Below, one piece after another: positions 9,963 through 53,463 of a DNA stretch of 57,523 nucleotides. A program made the position numbers and the translations under genes. This DNA is from a virus. The notes below the pieces were generated by a model. It saw only the letters and a list, made by a program, of their open reading frames with translations, was not told where the DNA came from and made no database searches. Each line of letters starts with the position of its first letter. Position 1 is the first letter of the stretch. The stretch spans positions 1 through 57,523 of the IMG/VR virus record IMGVR_UViG_3300008107_008233. One strand, 5' to 3'.

Positions 9963-12900
9963 ATGACAAAGTATACTAGCGGTAGACAAAGAGATTTACA
10001 GATTGGTATTAAGTCATATACCGAAGGAAGTACTGCATTAGAGGTTATTGGAAATGTTGGTATAGGAACAACATTAGCAACTTCTGATCTCACAGTAGTC
10101 GGTGATGGTTTATTTACTGGAGTTGTTACTGCTAGAAAATTTGTTGGTGAAGTTGAAATTACAACTATAGATTTTGAAAATCTAAACGTTAAAAATCTAA
10201 CTGTAACTGGATTTGCCACAGTTAATCAATCTTTAACTACTGGTGTGGTTATATCTGGTGTTGCCACAATTAATCAATCAATCACCACCAGTTCTATCAT
10301 TGGGTTTGCTAGTGTTGGTGTCGCAACAATCACTACACTAGATGCTGACTATATTGATGCTTTCATAGTTACTGGTAGGACAAGATTGTCAACCGGTGAA
10401 ACTGGCATCAATATTACCCAAGATACAATCAGTGGTCCAAGTATAATTTATATTGATCCTGCTGGCGTAGGAGTCAATACTGGAATTGTAAGAATTAAGG
10501 GTGATTTATATGTAGATGGGACAGAATTCATCGTTGATTCTACGACCATCGAACTTGCAGATTTTAACGTTGGCATTGCCACAACCGTAGGAAGTAACGT
10601 ACTTTTAGATGGTGCTGGAATTGGAATTGGTTCTACCAATATAAGAAAATATTTTACTTATTCATATACTAGCGATTCATTAAAATCCAGTGAAAATTTT
10701 GATATTGGTGTAGGAAAAACTTATAATATTGGTGGAACTGAAGTTCTTACTTCAACTCGATTAGGATCTGGTGTCACAGATTCTAACTTAAGGAATGCAA
10801 ATCCTGGAATTATTTCAGATAGACCAGCAATATATGCAGCAGAAACAGATAGAATAAATGATTATCTACTTCTTTATGATGATAGTCAAGTTTCTTTAAG
10901 AAAAATTTCTTTACAAGAAGCTTCTATTCAAGGTGTTCAAGGTACTCAAGGTGTTCAAGGATTGCAGGGATTCCAGGGACTTCAGGGGGATCAAGGAACT
11001 CAAGGTACTCAAGGAGATCAAGGTGTTCAGGGTGCTCAAGGTCTTGGATTCCAGGGTACTCAAGGATCTCAAGGTACTCAAGGAGATCAAGGAACTCAAG
11101 GACTTCAAGGTACTCAAGGTTTGGGTGCTCAAGGTACTCAAGGTATTCAAGGTGAGCAGGGAACTCAAGGAACCCAAGGAGATCAAGGAACTCAGGGTGC
11201 CCAAGGTCTAGGTGTTCAAGGATCTCAAGGAACCCAAGGGGATCAAGGTACTCAAGGAACCCAAGGAGATCAAGGAACTCAGGGTGCCCAAGGTCTAGGT
11301 GTTCAGGGATCTCAAGGTATTCAGGGTGAGCAGGGAACTCAAGGTGTTCAGGGTGTTCAAGGATCTGGAGTTCAAGGTACTCAAGGTACTCAAGGAGATC
11401 AAGGTACTCAAGGTCTTCAAGGTGTGGGTTCTCAAGGTGCTCAGGGAATTCAAGGAGAGCAGGGTACTCAAGGTCTTCAAGGTCTTCAGGGAGATCAAGG
11501 AACTCAAGGACTTCAGGGTACTCAAGGTTTGGGATCTCAAGGAACTCAAGGAATTCAAGGAGAGCAGGGAACCCAAGGAACTCAAGGAGAGCAAGGAACT
11601 CAAGGAACTCAAGGTTTGGGTGTTCAGGGGTCCCAAGGTACTCAAGGAATTCAAGGAGATCAGGGAACTCAAGGTCTCCAAGGTACTCAAGGTTTGGGTA
11701 TTCAAGGAACTCAAGGAACTCAAGGAACTCAAGGAATTCAAGGTTCGGTAAATAATTTTCAAGGTACTCAAGGCGCTCAAGGAACTCAAGGACTTCAGGG
11801 AGATCTTGGTAGATTAAGGGTTTATAAACAATCTGATCCACCAACAGGTGTTCAGGAAGGAGATATTTGGGTTGATATTGACAATGGAGTCATCTATACT
11901 TATTATGCTGATACTGATACTAGTTCAGCTCAATGGGTTGAATTTGGACCAGATCCAACTGGACCTCAAGGTGTTCAGGGTCTTCAGGGCAATCAAGGTA
12001 ATCAGGGAAATCAGGGAAAACAGGGAACTCAAGGATTCCAAGGTAATCAAGGATTGCAAGGAGTTCAAGGCACTCAAGCAAATCAAGGTACTCAAGGATT
12101 CCAAGGTAATCAAGGTACTCAAGGTCCATTAAGTAATTTTCAAGGTACTCAAGGTCCATTAAGTAATTTTCAAGGAACTCAAGGAACTCAAGGAACTCAA
12201 GGTACTCAAGGTGCTCAAGGTACTCAAGCAAATCAAGGTACTCAGGGATCTTTAAGTAACTTTCAAGGTGTTCAGGGATCTTTAAGTAATTTCCAAGGTA
12301 CTCAAGGAAGGCAAGGACTCACTGGTCGAGGTAATGATGGTCCTCAAGGAATTTCTGGAGAGTTTGCCGGCCAAGGTGTTCAGGGATCTTTAAGTAATTT
12401 CCAAGGTGTTCAAGGTAGAGCTGGAATTGTAACAGGTCAAGGTGCTCAAGGTCTAACTGGAGATGCTCCCGATAACCAGGGCACTCAAGGTACTGCTGGA
12501 TTACCTGGAGACTTCCAAGGTACTCAAGGTCCATTAAGTAATTTCCAGGGGGCACAAGGACCTCGTGGTGGGGGACAAGGTACTCAAGGTGCTCAAGGAC
12601 GTGATGGATTATTTGCTGGTCAAGGCGCACAAGGTCCATTAAGTAATTTTCAAGGTCTTCAAGGTGCCAAGAATGATAATCAAGGTACTCAAGGTGCCAA
12701 GAATGATAATCAAGGTACTCAAGGTGCCAAGAATGACAACCAGGGAACTCAAGGAACTGCTGGTAATGATGGAACACCCGGAGATTTTCAAGGAACTCAA
12801 GGATTCCAAGGAACTCAAGGTGTTGGAAGTCAAGGTGTTCAAGGAATTTCTGGTGGAGGTCAAGGAACCCAAGGTGTTCAGGGTAACTTGAGTAATAATC

Positions 12901-14321
12901 AAGGTACTCAAGGAAATCAAGGTGCAATAAACAATAATCAAGGAACTCAAGGATCTCAAGGAACTCAAGGATCTCAAGGTACTCAAGGTGATCAGGGGAC
13001 ACAAGGACTTCAGGGTCTTCAGGGTGCTCGTGGAAATTTCCAAGGCACTCAAGGTGCTCAAGGTGCAATAAACAATAATCAGGGTACTCAAGGAACACAG
13101 GGTACTCAAGGTAATCAAGGTCTTCAGGGTGGGGGAAGTCAAGGTTCTCAAGGAACTCAAGGTGCAATAAACAACAATCAAGGTACTCAAGGTACTCAAG
13201 GTGCAATAAACAACAATCAAGGTACTCAAGGAAATCAAAGTACTCAAGGTACTCAAGGAAGACAAGGAACTCAAGGACTTTCTAATCAAGGTACTCAAGG
13301 CACTCAAGGTGCAATAAACAACAACCAAGGTACTCAAGGAAATCAAGGTACAGTAAACAACAACCAAGGTACTCAAGGTGTTCAAAGTGCCCAGGGTAAT
13401 CAAGGACTTCAGGGAGGTGGAGGTCAAGGAACTCAAGGTCTCCAGGGATCTTTAAGTAATTTTCAAGGAAATCAAGGTCTTCAAGGATCAATAAACAATA
13501 ATCAAGGTACTCAAGGTACTCAAGGTAATAATGGGGGGCAGGGTTCCCAAGGAATATCAAATCAGGGTGTTCAGGGTGTTCAGGGCAACTTGAGCAATAA
13601 TCAGGGTACTCAAGGTACTGAAGGACCTCCTGGGAATTTCCAGGGCACTCAAGGTATTCAGGGTGTTCAGGGACTTCAAGGTGTGGGTTCACAAGGACCT
13701 CAAGGTGCTCAGGGTATCTTAAGTAATAATCAAGGAACTCAAGGCACTCAAGGTGCAATAAACAATAATCAAGGAACTCAAGGAACTCAGGCTACTCAAG
13801 GTCCTCAAGGAAGGCAGGGTACTCAAGGTCTTTCTAATCAAGGTGTTCAGGGATCATTAAGTAACTTTCAAGGTACTCAAGGTACTGAAGGACCTCCTGG
13901 GAATTTCCAGGGTACTCAAGGTATTCAAGGTTCTGGGGGTCAAGGTGCTCAAGGACTTCAAGGACTTCAGGGTGGAGGAACTCAAGGAACTCAGGGTATT
14001 CAGGGAATCTTTGGTCCAGCAACAATTCCAGGAATTACAACTACATCTGTATACACTTTGAAACTTGCGGATAATGGTAAGCACGTAAGTATTTCTACAG
14101 GTGGAATTATTGTTCCCCCAAATATTTTTAGTGCTGGTGAAAATGTTGTAATGTTTAACAATTCTCTATATAAACAAAATATCACCGCTGGAACTGGCAT
14201 AACTATGTACAATGCCGGTACTGCCTCTACTGGAAATAGAACTCTTTCTGGAAGAGGGGTTGCAACTGTTCTTTGTTTAAGTCCAAACGTATTTGCAATT
14301 TCTGGAGCTGGATTAACATAA
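9963..14321 (+). CDS. Collagen-like tail fibre protein, 1452 aa
   Basis: Residues 1-320 form a beta-rich head with repeated GIATIN/GVATI-type strands. Residues about 322-1348 are collagen-like Gly-X-Y triplets in which Y is nearly always Gln and X is often Thr (GTQ, GDQ, GLQ). The first block (322-610) is broken at intervals by a two-residue unit (GL, GV or GS before the next Gly). A folded insert (about 613-667, YKQSDPPTGVQEGDIWVDI) interrupts it. The second block is broken by seven-residue units such as GSLSNFQ and GAINNNQ. A beta-rich tip (1350-1452) ends the protein. Collagen-like phage fibres form trimeric triple helices; the tip would bind the host or the next protein. There is no proline in Y and few cross-linkable lysines. 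Confidence 0.88.
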   Translation: MTKYTSGRQRDLQIGIKSYTEGSTALEVIGNVGIGTTLATSDLTVVGDGLFTGVVTARKFVGEVEITTIDFENLNVKNLTVTGFATVNQSLTTGVVISGVATINQSITTSSIIGFASVGVATITTLDADYIDAFIVTGRTRLSTGETGINITQDTISGPSIIYIDPAGVGVNTGIVRIKGDLYVDGTEFIVDSTTIELADFNVGIATTVGSNVLLDGAGIGIGSTNIRKYFTYSYTSDSLKSSENFDIGVGKTYNIGGTEVLTSTRLGSGVTDSNLRNANPGIISDRPAIYAAETDRINDYLLLYDDSQVSLRKISLQEASIQGVQGTQGVQGLQGFQGLQGDQGTQGTQGDQGVQGAQGLGFQGTQGSQGTQGDQGTQGLQGTQGLGAQGTQGIQGEQGTQGTQGDQGTQGAQGLGVQGSQGTQGDQGTQGTQGDQGTQGAQGLGVQGSQGIQGEQGTQGVQGVQGSGVQGTQGTQGDQGTQGLQGVGSQGAQGIQGEQGTQGLQGLQGDQGTQGLQGTQGLGSQGTQGIQGEQGTQGTQGEQGTQGTQGLGVQGSQGTQGIQGDQGTQGLQGTQGLGIQGTQGTQGTQGIQGSVNNFQGTQGAQGTQGLQGDLGRLRVYKQSDPPTGVQEGDIWVDIDNGVIYTYYADTDTSSAQWVEFGPDPTGPQGVQGLQGNQGNQGNQGKQGTQGFQGNQGLQGVQGTQANQGTQGFQGNQGTQGPLSNFQGTQGPLSNFQGTQGTQGTQGTQGAQGTQANQGTQGSLSNFQGVQGSLSNFQGTQGRQGLTGRGNDGPQGISGEFAGQGVQGSLSNFQGVQGRAGIVTGQGAQGLTGDAPDNQGTQGTAGLPGDFQGTQGPLSNFQGAQGPRGGGQGTQGAQGRDGLFAGQGAQGPLSNFQGLQGAKNDNQGTQGAKNDNQGTQGAKNDNQGTQGTAGNDGTPGDFQGTQGFQGTQGVGSQGVQGISGGGQGTQGVQGNLSNNQGTQGNQGAINNNQGTQGSQGTQGSQGTQGDQGTQGLQGLQGARGNFQGTQGAQGAINNNQGTQGTQGTQGNQGLQGGGSQGSQGTQGAINNNQGTQGTQGAINNNQGTQGNQSTQGTQGRQGTQGLSNQGTQGTQGAINNNQGTQGNQGTVNNNQGTQGVQSAQGNQGLQGGGGQGTQGLQGSLSNFQGNQGLQGSINNNQGTQGTQGNNGGQGSQGISNQGVQGVQGNLSNNQGTQGTEGPPGNFQGTQGIQGVQGLQGVGSQGPQGAQGILSNNQGTQGTQGAINNNQGTQGTQATQGPQGRQGTQGLSNQGVQGSLSNFQGTQGTEGPPGNFQGTQGIQGSGGQGAQGLQGLQGGGTQGTQGIQGIFGPATIPGITTTSVYTLKLADNGKHVSISTGGIIVPPNIFSAGENVVMFNNSLYKQNITAGTGITMYNAGTASTGNRTLSGRGVATVLCLSPNVFAISGAGLT
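10925..14010 (+). repeat. 9-bp based tandem repeats coding Gly-X-Gln
   Basis: Long arrays of units such as CAAGGTACT and CAAGGAACT, with longer copies nested inside. An example is three successive 30-bp units coding GAKNDNQGTQ at about 12664-12753. Near-identical arrays recur in the gene at 15225. Such DNA is prone to slippage and recombination, so fibre length should vary between isolates. Confidence 0.9.
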
Positions 14322-15199: not shown

Positions 15200-15205
15200 T
15201 AAATA
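15198..15205 (+). promoter_or_regulatory. Late promoter AATAAATA
   Basis: It overlaps the stop of the glycine-rich gene and lies 20 bases before the next fibre gene. Confidence 0.5.
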
Positions 15206-15224
15206 TTAAAAGAGAAAATCAAAA

Positions 15225-17627
15225 ATGCCCACACTTAATTTTCCTGATAATCCATCTATAAATGATATTTACGCTATAGGAAATAAGCGTTGGATTTATA
15301 ATGGAGAGGGGTGGAAATTATTACCACAAGATCCTATAATTGGACCCCAAGGAATTCAGGGAATACAAGGTGTTATTGGTATTCAGGGTATAATAGGACC
15401 TGCAGGAACATCGGTTAATATTGTTGGGTCGATTACATCAAAAACATCATCAATTGGATCTACTGTCTTAACGTTTAATGATACGGTTTATCCTTGGTAT
15501 CCACCAGGATTTGGAGATGGTGTACTTGCCCAAGATACTGGTAATTTATGGGTTTTTGATGGAACTATTTGGGTTAATGTTGGAAAAATTACTGGACCAC
15601 AAGGTACTCAGGGACGTCAAGGACTTCAGGGTGTAGGTTCTCAAGGAACTCAAGGAACCCAGGCTACCCAAGGTCCTCAAGGAAGGCAGGGTACTCAAGG
15701 TATTCAGGGTCTTCAAGGTACTCAAGGTGTTGGATTTCAAGGAACCCAAGGTACTCAAGCTAATCAAGGTACTCAAGGTCTTCAGGGTGGATTAAGTGCC
15801 CAGGGAACACAGGGTACTCAAGGTATTCAAGGAAGGCAGGGTACTCAAGGTCTTCAGGGTGGATTAAGTGATCAGGGAACACAGGGTACTCAAGGTATTC
15901 AAGGACTTCAGGGGCAAACGGGACCTCAAGGAACTAGAGGATCTCAAGGATTCCAGGGAACTCAAGGAGTTCAAGGTACTCAAGCAAATCAAGGTACTCA
16001 AGGATTCCAGGGAACTCAAGGATTCCAGGGAACTCAAGCAACTCAAGGTACTCAAGGTACTCAAGGTATTGCCGGTACGACACAAGGTACTCAAGGTGTT
16101 CAAAGTGCTCAAGGAGTTCAAGGTACTCAAGGTACTCAAGGTATTGCCGGTACGACACAAGGTACTCAAGGTGTTCAAAGTGCTCAAGGTCTTCAAGGAC
16201 TTCAGGGAACTCAAGGACTTGGAACTCAAGGAAACCAAGGTACTCAAGGTGTTCAAAGTGCTCAAGGAGTTCAAGGTACTCAAGGTACTCAAGGATTCCA
16301 GGGAACTCAAGGATTCCAGGGAACTCAAGGTGCTCAAAGTGCTCAAGGAGTTCAAGGTACTCAAGGTACTCAAGGTATTGCCGGTACGACACAAGGTACT
16401 CAAGGTGTTCAAAGTGCTCAAGGTCTTCAAGGACTTCAGGGAGTTGGATCTCAAGGTACTCAAGGACTTCAAGGTCCTCAAGGTCCTCAAGGACTTCAAG
16501 GTCTTCAAGGAGTTGGATCTCAAGGTACTCAAGGTCTTAAGGGTGATCAAGGTGCTCAAGGACTTCAAGGTCTTCAAGGAGTTGGATCTCAAGGCACTCA
16601 AGGTCGTCAGGGTCTTCAAGGTCCTCAAGGACTTCAAGGACTTCAGGGAGTTGGATCTCAAGGCACTCAAGGACTTCAAGGATCTTCCGATGGCGGATTA
16701 ACAGTCTTTAATGATATAACTACAAATCAAACTTGGTCTGTTGGCATTCTTTCCGTAACATCTGGAATTGCCAAAACAGCACATGTTTCTTCTACAAAAC
16801 TTCAATTCAATCCTTCGACTGGAGCACTTGGAATTGGTACAATAATTGATATTGTTCCTTACGATACTTTAAATTCCGGTACTTTATCCTGGGAAGGTTC
16901 TGCTGGACAGTTATTCAGTATTACAAATAATCTTACTTCCGGAAGTATTTTCAGTGTTAATGATGTTTCTGGAATTCCTGCTATTGATGTCGATGCTAAT
17001 GGGACTATTGAACTTGGTCCTTTTGGTGGAAACATTGGAGTAGGAACTACAAATCCAACTCAAAAACTTGATATTGTTGGTAATATAAGATTGAGGAATG
17101 GTCTTTATGATTTCTTCAATAATGTTGGTGTCGCCGGTAGTGTTTTAATCTCTACTGGTGCTGGCGTGAGTTGGGTAAACTTTAGTGGTGGTGCAACGCT
17201 TCAAAACGATACGACAACAAATGCAACCTGGTATCCAACTTTATCTAGTGCTACTACCGGTACTTATACCACTGCATATGTTTCTAATACAAAACTTCAA
17301 TTTAATGCTTCTACCGGAACTTTATCAGCAACAGTATTCACATCACTATCTGATGAAACTCAAAAGACTAATATAAGACCAATTGAAAATGCTCTTGATC
17401 TTGTAAAACAAATGAACGGTGTTAAATACGATTGGAAAGATGAGCATAGTCAATCTTCAGTTGGTGTGATCGCACAAGAAGTAGAAAGAGTTCTTCCAGA
17501 AGTTGTAACTACGAATGATCAAGGATTGAAGACAGTCTCATATGGAAATATTGTTGGTGTATTAATAGAAGCAATTAAAGAACAGCAAATACATATTGAA
17601 GAATTGGAGAGAAAATTGAATGCCTAA
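15225..17627 (+). CDS. Collagen-like tail fibre with C-terminal S74 chaperone
   Basis: An 800-residue fibre. The N-terminal cap (1-40, ending W[14 protein letters not shown]) is followed by a short collagen stretch. A small domain (about 63-125, [15 protein letters not shown]) precedes a collagen-like block of Gly-X-Gln triplets (125-485). A beta domain with two copies of an NDxTTNxTW...TKLQFNxSTGxL unit runs to about 705. The end is an intramolecular chaperone of the endosialidase/peptidase S74 type (about 705-800: [40 protein letters not shown], coiled-coil C-terminus). The Ser before Asp in SDE is the expected self-cleavage residue. The chaperone trimerises the fibre and is then cut off. 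The end overlaps the next gene by 8 bases. Confidence 0.92.
15600..16680 (+). repeat. Collagen-coding tandem repeat array
   Basis: The same CAAGG-based units as in the 9963 gene. It includes three near-identical copies of a unit containing [17 protein letters not shown] (near 16070, 16140 and 16376), evidence of internal duplication. Confidence 0.85.
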
Positions 17628-19986
17628 TCAGTTTTTTTCACCAGAAGGAGACCTTGAAAATTATTTTGTAGATGAGTACTGGTTAATTGATCAGTATATT
17701 GGAGATCAATTGTGGTCATGGGGTGAGGGAGCTCGCGGTTATCTTGGAAATGCTAGTATTAATTCTTACAATCCCACACCAGTTACAACTAGTTCTGGAG
17801 GAACCAATTGGAAACAAGTGGATGGCGGACAAAGACAAAGTGCTGGAATAAAACTTGATGGAACTTTATGGGTTTGGGGAAATGGTGATGCTGGAAGACT
17901 CGGAAACAATTCAAACATACTCAATAATTCCACTCCAATCACTACTTTTGCTGGAGGAACTAACTGGAAGCAAATAGAGATGAAAGGACTTTTTGCTGCC
18001 GCAATCAAGACTGATGGAACTTTATGGACTTGGGGGTATAATGGTAGAGGGCAACTTGGAATAGGAAATAATACAATTTCTTTTGTATCCACTCCTGTTA
18101 CTACACTCGCAGGAGGAACCAACTGGAAACAAGTAAGTGTTGGATATTATCATGCGTCGGCAATCAAGACTGATGGAACCTTGTGGACTTGGGGTGATTA
18201 TTTTAATGATTTTGGAATGTTGGGTAAAGGTGATGATTATTCAGTAAATAAAACTAAACCTGTTCCTATTACCACAACAGGTTGGGCAGACACTGCAACA
18301 ACAAATTCAGAAGATTTATATACAATATCTGCAGGATATTCTTTTTCTTCAGCAATCAAGACCGATGGAACCTTGTGGACTTGGGGTAATGGGAATAGTG
18401 GACAACTTGGAAATGCTCAAACAATCAACAGGTCCACTCCAGTCACCACTTTTGCCGGAGGGACTAACTGGAGACAAGTAAGTTCTGGAGGAAATTTTGA
18501 TTCCTCATGTGCAGGCATTAAAACTGATGGAACTTTATGGGTTTGGGGGAATGGGAGATTTGGAATACTTGGAAATGCAATAATCACAGGTATTATATCT
18601 ACTCCAGTCACCACATTTGCAGGAGGAGCAAACTGGAAACAGGTGAGTGTTTCAAGTTCTCATACTGTAGCAATTAAGACTGATGGAACCCTATGGACTT
18701 GGGGTGCTGGAACTTCTGGGCGACTTGGAAACGCAGTAACAACTAATACATCTACACCAGTCACAACATTTGCCGGAGGAATAAACTGGAAACACTCTGC
18801 AGCAATATTTAGTGCTACGTTGGCAATCAAAACCGATGGAACCCTATGGACTTGGGGCAGTACAAGTTATGGGCAACTTGGAAATGCAACTGGACCAGGT
18901 GGTATTAGATCTACTCCAGTCACCACATTTGCCGGAGGAACTAATTGGAAACAAGTGGGTGAAGGTGGAAATACCGGAACATCTACGGCAATCAAAACCG
19001 ATGGAACCCTATGGACTTGGGGTTTTGGACTTTCTGGGGCACTTGGGAATGGAGTAGGTTATGTTGGTGCTGTATCAACCCCAATCACCACTTTTGCAGG
19101 AGGAACCAATTGGAAACAAGTCGCAAATGGAAGAAATACGACTGTTGCAGTCAAGACTGATGGAACTCTATGGACTTGGGGTCGTGGAACTGATGGAGAA
19201 CTTGGAAATGCAGTTGATGGTATTGCATCAACCCCAGTTACCACCTTTACTGGAGGCACTGATTGGAAACAAGTGAGCGGTGGTTTCAGGCATGTTATTG
19301 CACTAAAAGGAACTTCACCAAATCTGCAAATTTTCTCATTTGGATCCGCTCGTGATGGGCAAATGGGAGATGGGTTTAATATACAAACCAATTATGCTCC
19401 AGGACAAGTTTTTGGAAATGCTAACGATTGGAAAGAAGTTAGTTCTGGATATCATAATAATGCAGCAATCAAGACCGATGGAACCTTATGGACTTGGGGA
19501 TATAATTATGCTGGAAATATTGGAGTCGGTGATTCCATTAATCGAAATACTCCAATCACCACATTTGCCGGAGGAACCAATTGGAAACAAGTTAGTGTTG
19601 GAGGTTATTTTGATAATTATTTGTGCATGGCAGCAATCAAGACCGATGGAACTTTATGGACCTGGGGCAGTCAAAATGCAGGAATGTTGGCAAATTTTGT
19701 AAATTCTTTTACATATGTCAGTACTCCAATTACAACCTTTGCCGGAGGAACAAATTGGAAATATGTTGATATTGGAAATGAGCATGTATCGGCAATCAAG
19801 ACCGATGGAACTTTGTGGATGTGGGGTGAAAATTTTTCTGGACAACTTGGAAATGGTGATGCTTTAACAAGATCAACTCCGGTCACTACATTTGCTGGGG
19901 GAACTAATTGGAAACAAGTAAGAGCTGCTGGTTATCATACTTTAGCAGTACAATCTGGTATCAATGCCGACTACCCACTCTCATAA
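17620..19986 (+). CDS. RCC1-repeat beta-propeller protein 1 (788 aa, 14 blades)
   Basis: After a short N-terminal cap, about 50-residue repeats fill the protein. The repeat core is [18 protein letters not shown]...[18 protein letters not shown], an RCC1-type propeller blade. I count 14 blades: a first one (QLWSWG), 12 with (K)xDGTLW, and one variant ([10 protein letters not shown]...FSFG, about 558-576). A unique linker ([14 protein letters not shown], about 221-236) follows blade 4; the variant is the eleventh blade. Seven blades therefore lie between linker and variant, with 4 before and 3 after. That is what one seven-bladed propeller inserted in another would look like. Its place after a fibre gene suggests a virion fibre or receptor-binding role; other RCC1 roles seem unlikely in a phage late operon. 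Confidence 0.85.
17700..19970 (+). repeat. RCC1-coding repeats, array 1
   Basis: Units of about 150 bases sharing cores such as ACTGATGGAACTTTATGGAC and GCAGGAGGAACCAACTGGAA. The same units recur in the arrays at 20890 and 32880. Confidence 0.85.
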
Positions 19987-19989
19987 ATA
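19982..19989 (+). promoter_or_regulatory. Late promoter CATAAATA
   Basis: It overlaps the stop of RCC1 gene 1 and lies 15 bases before the ATG at 20005. Confidence 0.5.
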
Positions 19990-43042: not shown

Positions 43043-43052
43043 TTAAAAAACA

Positions 43053-43075
43053 TGCTATAATATAACTAATAAATA
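43053..43075 (+). promoter_or_regulatory. Extended -10 promoter plus late motif
   Basis: TGCTATAAT (43053-43061) is followed by AATAAATA (43068-43075) in the only sizeable gap of the sugar cluster. The next start is at 43105. Confidence 0.55.
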
Positions 43076-43104
43076 TCCACAATGAAACCTTTTTAATAAT
43101 TCAT

Positions 43105-44702: not shown

Positions 44703-45379
44703 TGAAAATAGCAGTTTGTTTATCTGGAGCAATTAAATATCCTGAAAAATCTTTGGCAAGTATTAAAAAGATTTATCCTAATGATTTTATAAAAGTCTTT
44801 ATTCACACTTGGGAAATTGAAAACATTAAAGAATATGGTAGAGATAGTTTCAGTGGAAAAATGGGTCTTTCTGGAATCGATGTCTTATCAGAGTATCAAT
44901 ATGAAGATATTTTAATAGAAAATTACACTGAAAAGAGACATATCTTTCAGGATATGTTTGATACTTTACAGTTTAAAGAATCTCATAGAAAAGATGTTGG
45001 ACTTATCAGTATGTATTATACACTCTTTAAAAGTAATCAATTAAAAATTTCATATGAAATCAAAAACAATATGATTTTTGATAGAGTTGTTCGTATGAGA
45101 TTCGATAGTGATTTTAAAGATAAAGATTTAATATTAAATGAAAGTCCAGACTGCATTCAGATCCCATCCGGAAATGATTATGCCGGAATTAATGATCAGT
45201 TCGCTGTGGGTCCTTCGGAAGATATGGATCATTACTGTAATGTTTTCAATAAACTTGAGGATCTTAAAGATATGGAATATAATCCAGAAAGATTATTGAT
45301 AACCTACTTTGATAGAAATCCTCTTAAAAACAAAGGAGTGCATAGGTTTGATTTTGACGTTGCAATAAATAATGGATAA
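44702..45379 (+). CDS. Glycosyltransferase-like protein, tandem copy 1
   Basis: 225 residues. N-terminal AVCLSGAIKYPEKSLASIKK, then FIKVFIHTWEI. A GT-A-like metal site is VVRMRFDSDFKDKDLIL (about 136-152), with INDQFAVGPSEDMDHY further on. It has the same layout as the next gene throughout, and the DNA at the start (AAATATCCTGAAAAATCTTT, against AAACATCCTGAAAAATCTTT) is almost unchanged. A recent tandem duplication is therefore likely. Donor unknown. Confidence 0.7.
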   Translation: MKIAVCLSGAIKYPEKSLASIKKIYPNDFIKVFIHTWEIENIKEYGRDSFSGKMGLSGIDVLSEYQYEDILIENYTEKRHIFQDMFDTLQFKESHRKDVGLISMYYTLFKSNQLKISYEIKNNMIFDRVVRMRFDSDFKDKDLILNESPDCIQIPSGNDYAGINDQFAVGPSEDMDHYCNVFNKLEDLKDMEYNPERLLITYFDRNPLKNKGVHRFDFDVAINNG

Positions 45380-45394
45380 TAAAAGTTTTAGGTA

Positions 45395-46069
45395 ATGAAA
45401 GTAGCAGTTTGTTTATCTGGAGCAATTAAACATCCTGAAAAATCTTTAGAAAGCCTTAAAAGAATTTATCCCAATGATTATCTAAAAGTTTTTATTCATA
45501 CTTGGAAAATCAAAAGTAATGTGGACTATCATTCAGATAGTTTTAGTGGAAGTTCTGGTCTAGTTGACTTAAATATTCTTTCAGAGTATAATGCAGATGA
45601 TATCTTAATAGAAAACTATAACATTAAAAGAAAAAAATTTAAATTTATGTATGAAAATTTAGAATTTTCATTTGAAGGTAGAGCTGATATTGGTGTTATG
45701 AGTATGTACTATTCTATTTTTAAATCCAATCAACTCAAACGTAAGTATGAGAGAAAAAATAAAATTTTATTTGATAAAGTTATTCGTATGAGATTTGATA
45801 GTGATTTCCGTGATAAAGATTTAATCCTCGATGAAAATATAAATGAGGTTCAAATTCCATTGGGAAAAGATTGGGCTGGGGTAAACGATCAATTTGCAAT
45901 CGGCCCTTCCAAACAGATGAACATCTATTCAAATCTTTTTAATAAGATTGATAAATTGCAAGATGGATCTTACAACCCAGAAAGATTTTTAAGAGATTAT
46001 CTATCTAGGAATGGTGTTTCTACTCAAAGATTTGAATTTCAAATCTATATTAATGGGGGAGATTTGTGA
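45395..46069 (+). CDS. Glycosyltransferase-like protein, tandem copy 2
   Basis: 224 residues, paralogous over its whole length to the preceding gene: AVCLSGAIKHPEKSLESLKR, VIRMRFDSDFRDKDLIL, VNDQFAIGPSKQMNIY, YNPERFLRDYL. The most different parts are the acceptor-side segments (about 45-90 and the C-terminus). That fits a change of acceptor after duplication. A 15-base gap separates the two copies. The end overlaps a GTG start. Confidence 0.7.
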   Translation: MKVAVCLSGAIKHPEKSLESLKRIYPNDYLKVFIHTWKIKSNVDYHSDSFSGSSGLVDLNILSEYNADDILIENYNIKRKKFKFMYENLEFSFEGRADIGVMSMYYSIFKSNQLKRKYERKNKILFDKVIRMRFDSDFRDKDLILDENINEVQIPLGKDWAGVNDQFAIGPSKQMNIYSNLFNKIDKLQDGSYNPERFLRDYLSRNGVSTQRFEFQIYINGGDL

Positions 46070-46968
46070 AAGTACTATTTGTTTTTTCATTTTCATATAA
46101 TGAATACCTTGCCGACTGCATTTATCATGGATTAATTGATTCGGGCGTTGATGTATATGAAACTCATTATCCTGGATACATGATGAGTGATTATGAGGAA
46201 CAATCCGGACAAGAACTTCGCGGTCTATATGGTAGGGGATTTACTCTTTATGGGAGAATGAATCACAAACCTCAGATTGATCCTCCTCATGTTATAATTG
46301 ATAAGATAAGATCAAAATTTTATGATGTGATCATTTATGGATGCGTCTATACGCATTTTATGATCTGTGATAGGCAATGTTTAGATTATCTCGATGAAGT
46401 TAGATCTCATTATCCTAGATCAAAAGTTCATTTCGTTGATGGATCTGATGATATTACTCATTTTTCACAAGAATATAATCTAGATCAGTATGGTATTGTT
46501 TGGAAAAGAGAATTAACTGATTATGTGTATGGGAATCCAATCTCTTTTGCCATACCTGAAGGTATATTAAGAACAACTTCGACAAAAAAAGAAGAAATTT
46601 TTCCATCAAAAATCAAAAGTCCAATTCCAGGTTTTCATAGTGATCCAAAAAAATATACATTTGATAATGAGAAAGAATATTATGATGCGTATGCCAGTGC
46701 TTTTTATGGATTTACATGTAAGAAAATGGGATGGGATTGTATGAGGCACTATGAGATTCTTGCAAACAGAACCATTCCATATTTTTATGATCTAGAAAAT
46801 TGTCCCGGAACAATTCTTACAGATTTTCCCAAGTATATGGTACTAGAAACAAACAAATATTCATGGAAAGGGCAAATTCCCTCTGATTATGAAGACTATA
46901 ATGAATATCTGTTTTCTTATACTAAAAAGAATTTAACAACTAAAAAATTAGTGAGCAGATTTTTTTAG
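46066..46968 (+). CDS. Putative glycosyltransferase (GT-B, exostosin-like end)
   Basis: GTG start after GGGGGAG, overlapping the previous stop as GTGA. 300 residues: KVLFVFSFSYNEYLADCIY at the N-terminus, then YDVIIYGCVYTHFMICDRQCLDYLDE, and VHFVDGSDDITHF. Near the end, SAFYGFTCKKMGWDCMRHYE and ILANRTIPYFYDLENCPG align in pattern with the exostosin donor block, though without CGRGN. Assignment is moderate. Confidence 0.6.
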   Translation: MKVLFVFSFSYNEYLADCIYHGLIDSGVDVYETHYPGYMMSDYEEQSGQELRGLYGRGFTLYGRMNHKPQIDPPHVIIDKIRSKFYDVIIYGCVYTHFMICDRQCLDYLDEVRSHYPRSKVHFVDGSDDITHFSQEYNLDQYGIVWKRELTDYVYGNPISFAIPEGILRTTSTKKEEIFPSKIKSPIPGFHSDPKKYTFDNEKEYYDAYASAFYGFTCKKMGWDCMRHYEILANRTIPYFYDLENCPGTILTDFPKYMVLETNKYSWKGQIPSDYEDYNEYLFSYTKKNLTTKKLVSRFF

Positions 46969-46995
46969 CATACATAAATGAGAGGAATTTAAAAC

Positions 46996-48369
46996 GTGAA
47001 TAAATTAGTAATTTTTGATCTTGATGGAGTTCTTATTGATAGTAGGGAGATGCATTATGATGCACTGAATACTGCATTAAGAAACGTTGGAAATGAATAT
47101 GTAATTGGTATTGAAGAACATCTAAGCGTTTATGACGGTCTTCCCACTTCAAGAAAGCTTGCTATACTTACTGAAAAGAAGAGTCTACCTGTAGAAAAGC
47201 ATCAACAAATCTGGCAGGATAAACAGAAAGCAACTCTTGAAATTTTTTCTGATCTAGAAAATGATTATGAGTTGATGCACTATTTTCAGCAACTAAAGCA
47301 GAGAGGATATCAAGTTGCAGTTGCAAGTAACAGTATTCGCAATACTGTTAAATTAGTTTTACTCAAATTAGGAGTATTGGAATTTGTTGATTACTATGTA
47401 AGTAATGAAGATGTTGTAAGAAATAAACCATTTCCAGAAATGTATTGGAAATGTATGACTGCTTGTAATGCACTTCCAAAAGATACTGTCATCTTTGAAG
47501 ATAGTCATATCGGCAGGCAAGGTGCAATCGATAGTTGTGCTCACCTAATTGCAATTGAAAATAGACATGACCTAACTCAAGAAAAAATCAATAAGACTTT
47601 TAAAATCTTTGCCGCTAAAAAATTAACTATTGTTCCTTGGAAATCTGATAAAATGAATGTCCTTATTCCTATGGCAGGTGCTGGCAGTAGATTTGCCAGT
47701 GCTGGATACACATTTCCTAAACCATTGATTGAAGTTGATGGTAAACCAATGATTCAAGTTGTGGTTGAAAATTTGAACATTGAAGCAAACTATACTTTTA
47801 TTGTTCAAAAAGAACACTACGAAAAATATAGTCTTCAATACCTACTAAATCTGATTGCGCCTAATTGCAATATTGTTCAGGTTGATGGAATAACTGAAGG
47901 TGCTGCCTGTACAACCCTCCTTGCCAAGGAGTTCATTAATAATGATGCACCATTGATAATGGCAAACTCTGACCAGTTTGTAGAGTGGAACAGTAATGAA
48001 TGCCTCTATGCATTCAATGCTGACGGTATTGATGGTGGTATTGTCACCTTTAAGGCAACACATCCTAAATGGTCTTATGCAAAGATTGGTGATGATGGAT
48101 TTGTTTCAGAGGTGGCAGAGAAGAAACCAATCAGTGATAATGCAACTGTCGGAATCTATTTCTGGAAGAAAGGATCTGACTATGTTAAATATGCAGAGCA
48201 GATGATTGAAAAGGATATTAGGACTAATAATGAGTTCTATGTTTGCCCTGTTTTTAATGAGGCAATTCAATCCGGAAAGAAGATTAGGGTAAAAGAAATT
48301 CAAAAAATGTGGGGTCTTGGAACTCCCGAAGATTTAAAATACTTCTTAAGTAACTATGAAAGAAACTAA
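46996..48369 (+). CDS. HAD phosphatase-nucleotidyltransferase fusion
   Basis: 457 residues; GTG start with AGAGGA upstream. Residues 1-215 form a HAD hydrolase of the beta-phosphoglucomutase/phosphatase type: FDLDGVLIDS with D8 and D10, VASNS (about 111-115), KPFPE (about 158) and FEDSHIG (about 174). Residues about 218-457 form a sugar-phosphate nucleotidyltransferase: MNVLIPMAGAGSRFASAGYT with PKPLIEV next, MANSDQFVEW as metal site, and an end near WGLGTPEDLKYFL. Together they would dephosphorylate a sugar bisphosphate and make the NDP-sugar, giving donors to the neighbouring transferases. The sugar is unknown. The C-terminus overlaps the next gene by 14 bases. Confidence 0.85.
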   Translation: MNKLVIFDLDGVLIDSREMHYDALNTALRNVGNEYVIGIEEHLSVYDGLPTSRKLAILTEKKSLPVEKHQQIWQDKQKATLEIFSDLENDYELMHYFQQLKQRGYQVAVASNSIRNTVKLVLLKLGVLEFVDYYVSNEDVVRNKPFPEMYWKCMTACNALPKDTVIFEDSHIGRQGAIDSCAHLIAIENRHDLTQEKINKTFKIFAAKKLTIVPWKSDKMNVLIPMAGAGSRFASAGYTFPKPLIEVDGKPMIQVVVENLNIEANYTFIVQKEHYEKYSLQYLLNLIAPNCNIVQVDGITEGAACTTLLAKEFINNDAPLIMANSDQFVEWNSNECLYAFNADGIDGGIVTFKATHPKWSYAKIGDDGFVSEVAEKKPISDNATVGIYFWKKGSDYVKYAEQMIEKDIRTNNEFYVCPVFNEAIQSGKKIRVKEIQKMWGLGTPEDLKYFLSNYERN

Positions 48370-49015
48370 TTCAAAGCCATCGACTTATCATTCCGAATGG
48401 CAGCACAATCGGATAGAATTTATATTAAGTTTACATTCTCCAGACTTTTTTAAAGGTAAAAAGATTCTTGAGTTAGGATCATTTAATGGATACATTGGTA
48501 ACTACTTTGCAGAAGTTTTAGAATCTGATGTAACTTCTATTGAAGGAAGATCTGAAAATGTATCTATAATTAAAAATGACTATCCTTTATTGAAAGTTGA
48601 ATGTCGTGATTTGGACACTCCAGAGTGGATTTTTGGAAAGTATGATGTAATAATTAACTTTGGTTTGTACTATCATCTTGAAAATTATCATAAGGAGCAT
48701 CTCATTAATTGTATTAATAATTGCAATCTTATGTTCTTTGAAACTGTTGTTCATGACTCTTTCGAATCTGAAATATTTTTTAGATCTGAATCGGGGAATG
48801 ATCAATCTTTATCGAATAAGGGTGGTGCCCCATCAACATCTTATGTTGAAAATATTTTAAAAGAAAGCAACTGTAAATTTGTAAAACATTGTAATAGTAG
48901 ATTGAATGGTGGTGCTCATCACTATGATTGGGAAGATAGGGACAGTAAAGTTGCAGATGGTCATGCTCGTCGTTTTTGGGTAATTGAAAATGAAACTGAT
49001 TTCACACCGGGGTAA
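48356..49015 (+). CDS. Class I SAM-dependent methyltransferase
   Basis: 219 residues. KKILELGSFNGYIGNYF (about 35-51) is the SAM loop, TSIEGRSENV (about 59-68) has the acidic ribose-binding residue, and YDVIINFGLYYHLENYHKE (about 94-112) is motif IV/V. The C-terminal RLNGGAHHYDWEDR is the acceptor side. It lies between the nucleotidyltransferase and a phosphodiesterase-like gene; it overlaps both. Confidence 0.8.
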   Translation: MKETNSKPSTYHSEWQHNRIEFILSLHSPDFFKGKKILELGSFNGYIGNYFAEVLESDVTSIEGRSENVSIIKNDYPLLKVECRDLDTPEWIFGKYDVIINFGLYYHLENYHKEHLINCINNCNLMFFETVVHDSFESEIFFRSESGNDQSLSNKGGAPSTSYVENILKESNCKFVKHCNSRLNGGAHHYDWEDRDSKVADGHARRFWVIENETDFTPG

Positions 49016-49454
49016 TATTGACGGTTCGAATCCATTAGAAGAGAACAGACCTGAATACATTGAAAAGGCAATGTTGGAGGGATTTAATGTTGAAATTGAT
49101 ATTAGGTATGATACTTTTGATAAAAAATTATATCTTGGACATGATGAACCTCAATATGTTATTGATTGGTTTTGGTTGTCAAAATACAAAGATTTTCTTT
49201 GGATTCATTGTAAGAATATTGAAGCTCTTTATGAATTTTCTTATGGTACTAGTGGGTTTAATTACTTTTGGCATCAAGAAGACGATTATACTTTAACTAG
49301 TAAAAAATATATTTGGACTTATCCTGGAAAATCTTATACACCCAGATCTGTAATTGTAATGCCCGAGTGGAATATGGATATAGATACTTTATCAGATCTA
49401 AAAGTTTATAACTGTTTTGGAATCTGTAGTGATTATGTTGGGAGGATCAAATGA
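48990..49454 (+). CDS. Glycerophosphodiester phosphodiesterase-like protein
   Basis: ATG at 48990 gives MKLISHRGNIDGSN; the earlier TTG at 48984 adds two residues only. 154 residues. SHRGN with downstream EENRPEYIEKAMLEGFNVEIDIR (about 17-39), then LYLGHDEPQYVI, are the GDPD signatures (His, Arg, Glu, Asp, and His for metal and catalysis). It is about half the length of a normal GDPD barrel, so it is a short variant, frequent in sugar loci. It may handle phosphodiester-linked sugars. Confidence 0.7.
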   Translation: MKLISHRGNIDGSNPLEENRPEYIEKAMLEGFNVEIDIRYDTFDKKLYLGHDEPQYVIDWFWLSKYKDFLWIHCKNIEALYEFSYGTSGFNYFWHQEDDYTLTSKKYIWTYPGKSYTPRSVIVMPEWNMDIDTLSDLKVYNCFGICSDYVGRIK

Positions 49455-52400
49455 ACGTTTCATTAATTTGTGCATGTAAAAACAGAAATAAAACTCTAAA
49501 AGTATCTCTTCAATCCTGGTTGAATTTTGATGAGATCAAAGAAATTATTATTGTCGATTGGAGTTCTGATGAATCATTAGATTATTTAACAGAACTCGAC
49601 TCTAGAATTAAGGTAGTAACAGTTCCTAATAAAACATTTTTTAATCAACCACAACCTTTAAATTTGGCTGCGAGTCTTGCAACTGGAGACTCGATCATGA
49701 AGTTTGATATTGACTATATCATTAATCCATATTATAATTTCTTTGAATCATATAAGATAGATGAAACTTGTTTTCAATCTGGTGCTCGTAAAATAGAATA
49801 TCTAAATGATAATGTCTATGAGATGAATTTTGATGATATTATGATGTATGCCAATGTTCATAATGCATACTTCAAATCTTTGATTGGTCTTCTTCATATT
49901 ACACGGGAAAACTTTGAAAAGGTTGGAGGATATAATGAAGATTTAGGTGAGTTTTATGGATATGAAGATGAAGAACTCCAGATGCGTTTGGAGTTGATGG
50001 GATTAAAGCATAATAAACTTGTATACGACCACAATTTAATTCATATACCTCATCCAGATTCTAAAAGATTTGAGCACTTTAGGGGAGAAAATGAAGATAT
50101 GTTCTCCCAATATGAAAGAAATCTTTCATCCCAATATAGTGGTGATACTTTAAAATATCAATTAGAATATGCAATAGCACAGTATCACATCCAACATAAT
50201 AAAAAGTATTTTTCTAAAGTTACTGAATATTATGTTCAACAAAAAACTAAATGGAATATTAAACAACTAACCCCACAAAAGTATATTGCTACTGAAATGA
50301 ATAATTTAGAAAATTTTCCTCCAGTTTACTATGTAACTCTAGAAGACTGTGTTGATAGGCAGAAGTTAATCGAAGATGAGTTTGGTAGGTATGGAATTAC
50401 TCCTACTGCCATGATTTCCAAACGCTATGCTGATTCTAATGATAAAGTTACTGGAAAGTATCTTTATCAACTCACTGGTCCAACACAGGGTTGTATTGTT
50501 TCGCACCTGAAAGCAATTAAGCACTGGTATGAAACAAGTAGTTCTGATTATGCATTCTTCTGTGAGGATGATTTAAGTCTTAAGACTGTAGATTATTGGA
50601 ACTTTAAGTGGGAAGAGTTTATTGAAAGACTTCCAGAAGATTGTGAATGTGTTCAGTTAATGGCAATTCGTGGTGACTTTGATGGAGTCTATTTCAGAGA
50701 TCGAAAGTGGGATGACTGGTCTGAAACTGCTTACATAATGACCCGTGAGTATGCCAAAAAACTAATCGATAGTTATTGTATTGGTGATACATTCCATCTT
50801 GAACTTAAGGACCAGGATGTAATGCCGATTGGAGAAAACATTTTATTCACTGGCGTGGGTAGGGTGTATACATTTCCTATGTTTGTTGAAAATGTGGAAG
50901 TTCCAACCACAGATGTGAATGATCTTGAATTAGAAGATGGGCAAAAACCGAATCATGTTTATGCTTCCGAGTATGTACATAATTGGTGGAAAAACAATGG
51001 TAAACATGTAACTATAGAAGAACTTATGTCTGGTCAAGTAACGGAAGTATTAGAAAATTCTAAAAAAAATGTAGTAGATTGTTTTATTTACTTCAACGAG
51101 AAAGAACTATTAGAATTAAGGATTAACATCCTTAAGGATTATGTTGATAAGTTTGTTATTGCGGATGCAAACTATACTCATAGTGGAATACCAAAAGAAT
51201 ACACTCTTAAGAATACTATAAAGGAATTGGGACTTCCTGAAGATATTATCGAGGTCATTGAAGTTGATCTTTCTGAGTCTGCATTGGGTGGAGCTACTCC
51301 ATATGAAAAGAAGTGGAGTCAAGAAGCAACAAAACAATCTAGAGAGAAGGTTCATAGAAATGCTCTTGCAAGATGTTTAAAGACTAATGATTTCGATGAC
51401 GATACAATGTTTATTGTATCCGATTGCGACGAAATACTAGATCCTCAACATATTTCTATGTTACATGAACTGGCAAGGACACATCCAAACAACATCTATA
51501 AGGTTGATTTGGTACATCTTGAAGGTCGTGCTGATATGAGATCATACCACATAGAAACTGGCGAACCCAGAGAATGGAGGTACTCTTTGTTTGTTTGTAT
51601 GAAGAAACAAGCAGAAAAAATAGGATTCACATACATCCGCGCTGATGAATTTAATCCCTTCCCCATTGTATGGCCTTATAGTGAAGGTGGATGGACTCCT
51701 GGAGGATCATATGAGCATGGAAGAAGAATGACTGATCTTGGATGGCACTTTAGTTGGATGGGGTCGAATGAAAATAGATTAAATAAAGCAAAATCATTCT
51801 GCCATGCTGATTGGAATTTTGATTTCCTCAATCACAAGAACTATTCCAGTGATGAAATGAAAGATTTTATGCTTAATTATGAGCATGTTGAGGGTCAAAT
51901 TTGCCCATCGGGCATGAATGATTATATTATGAAACCATATCCTCTAGAAGATTTACCTCAGGCTATTTTTGATCTTCCTAAAGTTAAGAAGTTTTTATTG
52001 CCCGTTGGATCTGAAGTTTCTAAAAAGATTCCAAAAACTTTAATTCCAAGAGTTCCCAATCCAAAGAAAAAAGATCAGGAAATTAATCAAACTGACATAG
52101 AAGAACTTCTAACAAAGTTCTCTCTTGATACTGAAAATCCGGAAAGAAATTTTGATCTTGGTTTATGGTATGAAAAAGAAGGACATACTGCACCTTCACT
52201 TACATACTTTTTAAGGTGTGCAGAAAGAGCAGAGGATGATAATCTTGCATATGAAGCACTGATAAAATCTCATCATTCATATGATAGACAAGGAACTCGT
52301 GATGGCACTGCAGTTTCTCTCCTACAGCAAGCATTGTGCCTAATGCCGAAACGTCCGGAAGCATACTTTTTACTTGCAAGATTTCATGAAAGAAGACAGC

Positions 52401-52663
52401 AGTGGAATGATTCCTATAAGTATGCTTCTTTGGCACTTGACATCTGTGATTTCGATGTTCAACCTTTGATAAGTGAAGTTGAATATCCTGGTAAGTGTGG
52501 ATTGTTATTCGAGAAGGCCATATCTGGATACTGGTGGGGTAAAGGAGACCAGACTAGAGCAATTTTTAAAGATCTTCTAGATAATTATGAGATGACTGAA
52601 GATTATAGAAAATCAGTTAAGGATAATCTAGACAGAATTAAGAAGAACGACCAAAAATGTTAG
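49451..52663 (+). CDS. Three-glycosyltransferase fusion with TPR tail
   Basis: 1070 residues. Domain 1 (1-240) is GT2: SLICACKNRNKTLKVSLQSW, IIIVDWSSDES, then GGYNEDLGEFYGYEDEEL near 158-176. Domain 2 (about 285-480) is GT25-like, the family that includes collagen galactosyltransferases: PVYYVTLEDCVDRQ, then GCIVSHLKAIKHW and FFCEDDLSL with the DD site near 372. Domain 3 (about 538-800) is GT17-like: VDCFIYFNEKELLELRINIL, then VHRNALARCL and FIVSDCDEIL near 655. Residues about 880-1070 are TPR-like helices. Fusing three transferases suggests stepwise synthesis of a trisaccharide on one acceptor. Confidence 0.85.
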   Translation: MNVSLICACKNRNKTLKVSLQSWLNFDEIKEIIIVDWSSDESLDYLTELDSRIKVVTVPNKTFFNQPQPLNLAASLATGDSIMKFDIDYIINPYYNFFESYKIDETCFQSGARKIEYLNDNVYEMNFDDIMMYANVHNAYFKSLIGLLHITRENFEKVGGYNEDLGEFYGYEDEELQMRLELMGLKHNKLVYDHNLIHIPHPDSKRFEHFRGENEDMFSQYERNLSSQYSGDTLKYQLEYAIAQYHIQHNKKYFSKVTEYYVQQKTKWNIKQLTPQKYIATEMNNLENFPPVYYVTLEDCVDRQKLIEDEFGRYGITPTAMISKRYADSNDKVTGKYLYQLTGPTQGCIVSHLKAIKHWYETSSSDYAFFCEDDLSLKTVDYWNFKWEEFIERLPEDCECVQLMAIRGDFDGVYFRDRKWDDWSETAYIMTREYAKKLIDSYCIGDTFHLELKDQDVMPIGENILFTGVGRVYTFPMFVENVEVPTTDVNDLELEDGQKPNHVYASEYVHNWWKNNGKHVTIEELMSGQVTEVLENSKKNVVDCFIYFNEKELLELRINILKDYVDKFVIADANYTHSGIPKEYTLKNTIKELGLPEDIIEVIEVDLSESALGGATPYEKKWSQEATKQSREKVHRNALARCLKTNDFDDDTMFIVSDCDEILDPQHISMLHELARTHPNNIYKVDLVHLEGRADMRSYHIETGEPREWRYSLFVCMKKQAEKIGFTYIRADEFNPFPIVWPYSEGGWTPGGSYEHGRRMTDLGWHFSWMGSNENRLNKAKSFCHADWNFDFLNHKNYSSDEMKDFMLNYEHVEGQICPSGMNDYIMKPYPLEDLPQAIFDLPKVKKFLLPVGSEVSKKIPKTLIPRVPNPKKKDQEINQTDIEELLTKFSLDTENPERNFDLGLWYEKEGHTAPSLTYFLRCAERAEDDNLAYEALIKSHHSYDRQGTRDGTAVSLLQQALCLMPKRPEAYFLLARFHERRQQWNDSYKYASLALDICDFDVQPLISEVEYPGKCGLLFEKAISGYWWGKGDQTRAIFKDLLDNYEMTEDYRKSVKDNLDRIKKNDQKC

Positions 52664-53463
52664 ATTCTATACCTGTAATTGGAGTTCCTATTGTTAATGG
52701 ATTCAAATGGATACAGAGATTAGTTTCTAGTATTGATTATCCAGTTGATAATTTAATCATCATTAATAATAATGGTAGGGGAGAACTAACAGAAGAATTA
52801 GATAATCTTTGCAAGATAAACTATTACTATATTAAAAATATTAAAGTTTGTCATCTTCCTGCAAATATAGGAGTTTCTGGAGCATGGAATTTAATAATTA
52901 AATGCTACATGAATGCTCCTTATTGGATGATTGTAAATAATGATGTTTCTTTTACTTCTGGATTTTTAAAAAGTTTTATTGAGAATGCCGAAGATCCGGA
53001 AACTGGAATTGTTTTTGCAAATTCATCGATGTCTTATGATCTTTTTTTATTGAAAGATTGGGTTGTTCAAAAAGTTGGACTGTTTGATGAGAATTGTTAT
53101 CCAGCTTATGTTGAAGACGTTGATTATTATATTCGATGTAGTAATGCTGATATTAAAACAATCAGCGCAGGTCTTTCTTATTTTCATGGAGAAGGAGAAA
53201 ACACTTACGATACAACAGGATCTCAAACTTGGAGAATTGACCCTTCATTGCGAGAAAAATTGGATCACAGTCGACTTCAAAATGAATACTACATGTACCA
53301 CAAATGGGGATCAAATTGGCACGATACTGCGGGATCTTGGGGTCCTAATAGAGAAACAGTTACTTATGATATTCCATTTAATAATCAAGCTCTAAAGGAT
53401 CTTCCTTTAAGTTATACTTTTTATGATTTAAATTTTGTTAGAGATAAACATTTAGGATTTTAA
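52657..53463 (+). CDS. GT2 family glycosyltransferase
   Basis: 268 residues. PVIGVPIVNGFKWIQRLVSS, LIIINNNGRG, LPANIGVSGAWN (about 68-79), MIVNNDVSFTSGF with the NND metal site (about 90-102), and YVEDVDYYIR (about 149-158), which carries the catalytic acid. All are rhamnosyltransferase-like GT2 features. It is the last gene of the sugar cluster and overlaps the giant fusion gene by 7 bases. Confidence 0.85.
   Translation: MLDSIPVIGVPIVNGFKWIQRLVSSIDYPVDNLIIINNNGRGELTEELDNLCKINYYYIKNIKVCHLPANIGVSGAWNLIIKCYMNAPYWMIVNNDVSFTSGFLKSFIENAEDPETGIVFANSSMSYDLFLLKDWVVQKVGLFDENCYPAYVEDVDYYIRCSNADIKTISAGLSYFHGEGENTYDTTGSQTWRIDPSLREKLDHSRLQNEYYMYHKWGSNWHDTAGSWGPNRETVTYDIPFNNQALKDLPLSYTFYDLNFVRDKHLGF

Follow-up and report, generated by a model that had tools for sequence, protein, structure and literature searches.

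The window analysed here, a virus record of 57.5 kb that represents a fragment of a genome, carries a tightly packed operon encoding two collagen-like fibre proteins, three RCC1 propeller proteins, and ~23 soluble enzymes. Among these enzymes is a protein with an N-terminal TPR domain and a C-terminal glycosyltransferase domain (TPR-GT), which is tied to the RCC1 propellers and not to the collagen-like fibres. Gene content, gene order, overlap, and recurrence in other phages, together with the predicted fold and conserved catalytic-type residues, make it probable that TPR-GT glycosylates proteins in the cytoplasm in the manner of FlmG and TibC, docking on the RCC1 propeller tail proteins and decorating them.

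Gene content and order of the operon

By its sequence, the virus is a T4-like cyanomyovirus, i.e., a virus of photosynthetic bacteria. It carries psbD, talC (identified by Pfam), and a thyX-like gene, and the psbD stretch is ~83-86% identical to Synechococcus phages. Small genes that by eye look like HNH-type nucleases are present near psbD and talC (445-741, 2111-2647, and 5114-5497). All genes between 15225 and 53463 are on a single strand, and neighbouring genes overlap or are separated by gaps of at most 62 bp. The order from 15225 onward is collagen-like fibre, propeller a, a fibre-assembly-like protein, propeller b, TPR-GT, and a 2OG oxygenase, followed by three sugar-enzyme candidates, a CxxCxxCC protein, propeller c, a sulfotransferase, and additional transferases and methyltransferases (Table 1).

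Table 1. Features of the operon and of the collagen-like gene upstream
Feature	Position	Strand	Basis
Collagen-like fibre protein with Gly-X-Gln repeats	9963..14321	+	Pfam Collagen 1.1e-46; composition
Second collagen-like fibre, C-terminal Peptidase_S74 intramolecular chaperone	15225..17627	+	Pfam Collagen 2.4e-36
RCC1 propeller protein a, ~14 blades	17620..19986	+	Pfam RCC1 4.9e-87; motif counts
Small fibre-assembly-like protein between propeller genes	20005..20751	+	PHROG tail fibre protein; DUF4376 weak
RCC1 propeller protein b, ~42 blades	20762..28441	+	BLASTP to S-SRM01 RCC1 proteins; repeat counts
TPR-GT, proposed propeller glycosyltransferase	28490..29836	+	AlphaFold model, fold matches, invariant columns
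2OG-Fe(II) oxygenase (PF13759, 2OG-FeII_Oxy_5)	29820..30326	+	Pfam above cut-off
Three GT-A-like/unassigned sugar-enzyme candidates (30295, 30990, 31790)	30295..32440	+	Pfam weak or none
CxxCxxCC putative metal-binding protein	32433..32792	+	Pfam E 0.002, below cut-off
RCC1 propeller protein c, ~21 blades, amid enzyme genes	32809..36306	+	BLASTP to S-SRM01; repeat counts
Sulfotransferase	36348..37130	+	Pfam 1.4e-14
GT2, second 2OG oxygenase (37923), GT-like 38525, fused methyltransferase/GT2/methyltransferase	37127..41910	+	Pfam
RXYLT1/exostosin-like GT, DUF6165, FkbM methyltransferase, paired DUF7796 proteins, HAD-nucleotidyltransferase	within 41907..53463	+	
Fused GT2/GT25-like/GT17/TPR protein (49451-52663) and GT2	within 41907..53463	+	

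Blades of the window propellers were counted from the spacing of the motifs, with the gaps left by skipped motifs filled in: propeller a has 13 motifs and one skipped spacing, propeller b 41 and one, and propeller c 19 and two. Propeller b also has an insert (amino acids ~1447-1612) related to S-SRM01 gp332. A count of exactly 7 repeats is seen in 72 of the 139 RCC1 ORFs from related loci that are distinct and complete. The ~14, 42, and 21 blades in the window vs. 7 each in most relatives are expected if whole propellers were duplicated, and the window propellers thus seem to have been enlarged in complete sets of 7 blades. An AlphaFold prediction for propeller a (pLDDT 49) is uninformative on blade count.

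The first 8 bp of the propeller a gene are shared with the end of the S74 fibre gene, and the products of the small genes next to RCC1 are similar to proteins of tail-fibre assembly (PHROG tail categories). A DUF4376 match is above the cut-off in the S-SRM01 copy of the small gene and weak in the window copy, while the corresponding BUCT-ZZ01 gene gives a Phage_tail_APC match just below the cut-off. In Brevibacillus, Bacillus, and Clostridioides phages, too, RCC1 genes are located in the tail/baseplate region. Gene position and the neighbouring fibre-assembly genes therefore suggest that the RCC1 propellers are virion tail components. PHROGs 4219, 7220, and 16766 nevertheless file phage RCC1 proteins under DNA, RNA and nucleotide metabolism, where they are named regulators of chromosome condensation, despite this tail-region location.

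An earlier note on this DNA listed 2OG oxygenases, methyltransferases, a sulfotransferase, and a GT25-like domain. The 2OG-FeII_Oxy_5 assignment is above the cut-off for two proteins (29820 and 37923), and the sulfotransferase at 36348 and the methyltransferases at 39205 and 44091 were confirmed (48356 weakly). The GT25-like stretch, amino acids 286-542 of the 49451-52663 protein, aligns in tblastn with cyanophage genes annotated as GT25, but PF01755 gave no match at E<0.01; in AG-345-E08 and in the locus L149 the GT25 identity is backed by Pfam. The earlier note saw no flippase, polymerase, or ligase, and within the 57.5-kb fragment this holds for the cluster as judged by hydropathy: no 19-residue Kyte-Doolittle segment in the 23 enzymes is above 1.6 (maximum 1.5; psbD control 1.93). 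The sugar-enzyme set at 41907..53463 differs between relatives. Two related RXYLT1/exostosin-like transferases are present, one outside the cluster (3974-4981) and one within it (41907-42677), and the genes at 44702-45379 and 45395-46069 are tandem paralogues with weak DUF7796 matches.

Association of TPR-GT with RCC1 propellers in phages

The closest isolate, the freshwater phage S-SRM01 (Kyanoviridae), has the same gene order as the window: S74 fibre, RCC1a, small protein, RCC1b, TPR-GT, 2OG oxygenase, enzymes, RCC1c, sulfotransferase, and enzymes. Identity to the window is 41% for the small protein, 65% for TPR-GT as well as for the 2OG oxygenase, 52-62% for the next enzymes, 53% for the sulfotransferase, and 60-74% for the enzymes beyond it. 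The end of the 15225-17627 fibre is 73% identical to the S-SRM01 protein that is annotated as the long tail fibre distal subunit and itself lacks Gly-X-Gln repeats. Hence, enzymes and propellers stayed together while collagen did not. RCC1 is not mentioned in the S-SRM01 paper. AG-345-E08 keeps the cassette order at 20-49% identity (RCC1, small gene, RCC1, oxygenase, TPR-GT, PF13759 oxygenase, RCC1, sulfotransferase, GT25), and in AG-type loci the enzymes are present and GxQ collagen is absent from the region. A minimal form is found in BUCT-ZZ01, with a fibre, a tail-assembly chaperone, RCC1, and a TPR-GT to which a methyltransferase domain is fused (PHROG methyltransferase 1.8e-8). No other sugar gene is annotated at this locus, and the only other glycosyltransferases detected in BUCT-ZZ01 are two GT4-like ones ~80 kb away near queuosine-type genes.

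Searches with the TPR-GT proteins of the window, AG-345-E08, and BUCT-ZZ01 gave 38, 13, and 80 viral loci, respectively, and RCC1 genes are present in 38/38, 13/13, and 72/80 of them. The AG-type and BUCT-type proteins are 22-25% identical to the window protein and have the same invariant residues. Since some of the 38 loci are the window virus itself (L010, L011, L028, and L041 at 100%), the 134 TPR-GT proteins were clustered at 90% identity, resulting in 69 clusters. RCC1 is located upstream within 1.5 kb in 64 of these and within 200 bp in 55. These dereplicated counts rule out chance adjacency of RCC1 and TPR-GT. The remaining five clusters comprise two that are cut by the contig end and three with ample sequence and no adjacent RCC1. 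In L093/L094 another repeat protein takes the place of RCC1 (DUF6242 match; L093:3-2780, propeller-like by eye), L157 has a glycine-rich fibre, and in L149 HldE, cupin, and HldD genes are directly upstream (L149:7502-9988), which suggests a supply of ADP-heptose.

In the reverse direction, TPR-GT was found in 13 of 28 RCC1-bearing seeded loci, mostly adjoining RCC1 and sometimes with overlapping ends; some of the 15 loci in which it was not found are incomplete. Among 50,697 phage records, TPR-GT relatives occur only in S-SRM01 (two records), BUCT-ZZ01, and AG-345-E08, and all of these fall among the 18 records with RCC1 (hypergeometric 4e-11 for three phages). Firmicute phages have RCC1 but no TPR-GT; phage propellers would therefore not strictly require glycosylation. 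In the Aphanizomenon phage Yong-DA locus (L052), a weakly RCC1-similar protein is positioned amid polysaccharide export and sugar-nucleotide genes, in a region that resembles bacterial DNA more than the tail region of a phage.

The accessory enzymes follow the same pair. In 30 of 39 window-type loci the next gene after TPR-GT is the PF13759 oxygenase gene seen at 29820, and in 14/14 AG-type loci another PF13759 gene has this position, while a GT25 relative directly follows TPR-GT in 42 of 81 BUCT-type loci. The sugar-enzyme candidates 30990 and 31790 and the CxxCxxCC protein are present in all 39 window-type loci, and the sulfotransferase directly follows propeller c in the window, S-SRM01, and AG-345-E08. 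The GT25 and 2OG genes thus belong to the system, as proposed earlier, but what they accompany is the propeller/TPR-GT pair and not a collagen partner. GT25 alone was rejected as a propeller marker: the 49451 protein matches 99 phage records, for the most part via the GT25 stretch, vs. close RCC1 matches confined to three cyanophage-type genomes.

An alternative is that the transferases remodel host LPS or surface glycans against superinfection or grazing and travel with the propellers as a host-range island. The sugar genes of cyanophages have so far been proposed to modify host LPS, among them the 24 LPS genes of P-SSM2, like the window virus a T4-like cyanophage with many sugar genes (PMC2984593); the four phage records that have a TPR-GT relative do not, however, include P-SSM2. 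The many GT2, GT25-like, and GT17-type domains in the window, the description of GT25 in Pfam as an LPS biosynthesis family, and the ADP-heptose genes near 26/81 BUCT-type loci agree with such a role, and adjacency of RCC1 and TPR-GT alone would also fit a co-inherited host-range cassette. Yet a membrane flippase, polymerase, or ligase is missing from the cluster, in BUCT-ZZ01 TPR-GT follows RCC1 on its own, surrounded by structural genes and with the other glycosyltransferases far off, and a TPR docking domain is a feature of enzymes with protein substrates (FlmG, OGT). Host-surface modification is therefore considered rather unlikely, yet it is the main competing explanation, and the many other glycosyltransferases in the window may have this role.

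The predicted transferase and its candidate substrates

The combination of TPR and transferase that the earlier note read into 28490-29836 is borne out by the predicted fold, with no Pfam family matching. In the AlphaFold model (pLDDT 89.9), residues ~1-175 form the TPR domain, with helices 3-173 matching TPR folds, and residues 186-448 form a GT-B domain of the GT9/heptosyltransferase fold. The latter matches the GT9 protein 3tov (Z 17.2 over 246 residues), WaaF (Z 16.2), WaaC (Z 15.8), and TibC, a heptosyltransferase that acts on proteins (Z 15.6 over 238 residues). With the entire chain as query, Foldseek ranks SPY and OGT (GT41) highest, which likewise combine TPR and GT-B and act on proteins, whereas in a second structural alignment the catalytic domain alone scores nearer to GT9 than GT41. 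TPR-GT has no match in Pfam, NCBIfam, or PHROGs at the thresholds used, which leave room for distant membership; matches in a PDB sequence search are confined to TPR or TPR-like stretches, and bacterial relatives amount to five weak matches (24-32% identity).

With respect to domain architecture, TPR-GT resembles FlmG of Caulobacter crescentus, which also has an N-terminal TPR and a C-terminal GT-B domain; the TPR-containing domain of FlmG is required and sufficient for flagellin binding, and FlmG glycosylates flagellin (PMC7591256). FlmG modifies flagellins with pseudaminic acid in the cytoplasm, while for TPR-GT the RCC1 propeller is the proposed partner. For TibC-family enzymes, the location of their genes beside those of the adhesins has itself been taken as a sign of partnership (PMC4358343). 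The likeness to TibC/AAH (BAHT) comprises the GT-B catalytic fold, a gene beside a repetitive adhesin, and the ADP-heptose genes near part of the phage family. TibC differs in having a beta-barrel, a thumb, an iron finger, a dodecameric assembly, an autotransporter acceptor, and no TPR domain (PMC4358343); in the TPR-GT model the N-terminus is all-helical TPR in place of the N-terminal beta-barrel and iron finger. HldE/cupin/HldD-like ADP-heptose genes are present near 23-26 of 81 BUCT-type loci, and an ADP-heptose-like donor for TPR-GT is a lead only, as these genes are compatible with other uses.

Across 34 diverse members of the TPR-GT family, no variation is seen at the GxGD, FExxxFR, and SCTxxAH positions, among them D205 of GxGD. 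In heptosyltransferases of this superfamily the catalytic Asp is located in the N-terminal loop, as D13 in WaaC and D110 in TibC. Residue 1 of WaaC aligns with model residue 193, and judged from this alignment start, D205 may be the equivalent of WaaC D13. The invariance of these positions speaks against the reading of TPR-GT as an assembly factor or folding chaperone for the propellers that has no catalytic activity. Such a factor would account for the TPR domain, for the classic place directly behind the receptor-binding gene, here RCC1, and for the fibre-assembly-like genes in the cassette, but not for the methyltransferase, GT25, oxygenase, and nucleotide-sugar genes that are fused to TPR-GT or neighbour it, and we regard it as very improbable. 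An acceptor signature was sought in the RCC1 repeat consensus and none was found; a conserved Ser-Ser/Thr-Pro motif was dropped as a candidate, since it is also present in aquatic RCC1 repeats without TPR-GT.

The two collagen-like fibres are present as described earlier, and tandem-repeat arrays agree with the Pfam matches. Gly-Thr-Gln is not the rule in their repeats: Thr accounts for 35% of X in the window and for 17% in window-type relatives, where it is no more frequent than Ala (20%) and Val (17%). At Y, the 182 window triplets have Gln in 93%, Pro 0, and Lys 1. In a collagen modification system, Pro and Lys at Y are the hydroxylation and galactosylation sites at which the hydroxylases and GT25 enzymes work. 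The near absence of both residues means that the classical substrates of these enzymes are missing from the window fibres. Among 120 viral loci seeded on the Gly-Thr-Gln DNA pattern, which are short, RCC1 was found in 1 and TPR-GT in 2. As a control, the full records of 32 collagen-seeded viral contigs of at least 40 kb each were used, a few of which are window-type phages, as the design ought to recover. TPR-GT is present in 6 and RCC1 in 7, and 25 have neither, i.e., collagen is common without the enzyme. All 6 contigs with TPR-GT are nested within the 7 with RCC1 (Fisher p 7.7e-6), and none has TPR-GT without RCC1. The co-occurrence of fibres and enzymes that the earlier note suggested as a check thus holds for RCC1 and TPR-GT, in three clades and both search directions, and fails for collagen. 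On the basis of this control and of the repeat composition, collagen was rejected as the partner of TPR-GT. Consequently, it is most improbable that the collagen-like fibres are the glycosylated substrate, in spite of their position just upstream of the enzymes, the Thr at X in the window (not conserved in relatives), GxY runs in 13 of 20 window-type loci having full upstream sequence, and the BclA-type precedent for glycosylated bacterial collagen-like proteins, given that S-SRM01 and the AG-type loci hold the enzymes without collagen.

Proposed mechanism and its meaning

The idea that the phage decorates its own fibres with the adjacent enzymes is thus supported for the RCC1 propellers, on the grounds of directional adjacency in three clades, and not for the collagen-like fibres. 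In the mechanism that we propose, the RCC1-repeat propeller proteins would be produced as parts of the tail (fibre region). TPR-GT, whose translation follows theirs directly, would bind the propeller as its substrate via the TPR domain, and its GT9/TibC-like domain would catalyse the transfer of a sugar from its donor to acceptor residues on the propeller in the host cytoplasm, before assembly. The GT25 transferase, 2OG oxygenases, methyltransferases, and sulfotransferase would then extend or cap the product, with an accessory set that varies phage by phage. The benefit of the decoration would probably be to tune host adsorption or to shield the propeller. More tentatively, these phages may represent a widespread class in which a dedicated TPR-GT glycosylates tail propellers, and where swappable sugar modules (GT25, oxygenase, methyl-, sulfo-, and heptose) and multiplied propellers create a modular, sugar-coded receptor-binding surface.

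No earlier account of an RCC1 and glycosyltransferase cassette in phages was found in a literature search that covered few subscription journals and no preprints. The principle is known, both for a cognate transferase beside the protein that it decorates and for virion glycosylation, and it is seen here in a new combination. Mycobacteriophage virions have their own structural proteins glycosylated (Freeman et al. 2023, cited in PMC12619734). The modified sites there are the C-termini of capsid and tail tube proteins, with no mention of RCC1 propellers or TPR-GT in the text consulted.

Sugar-gene islands in cyanophages are usually read as modifiers of host LPS, and the propeller-transferase pair offers a concrete, testable alternative. 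Both S-SRM01 and BUCT-ZZ01 are isolates with known laboratory hosts, Synechococcus KCZYC6 and Synechococcus elongatus PCC 7942, respectively, which makes propeller glycosylation directly testable. If the proposal is correct, it would add an enzyme family that is invisible to Pfam, NCBIfam, and PHROGs, and it would correct the DNA-metabolism labelling of phage RCC1 proteins. Moreover, it would mean that phages glycosylate their own receptor-binding region, which would explain the presence of soluble transferases inside tail operons.
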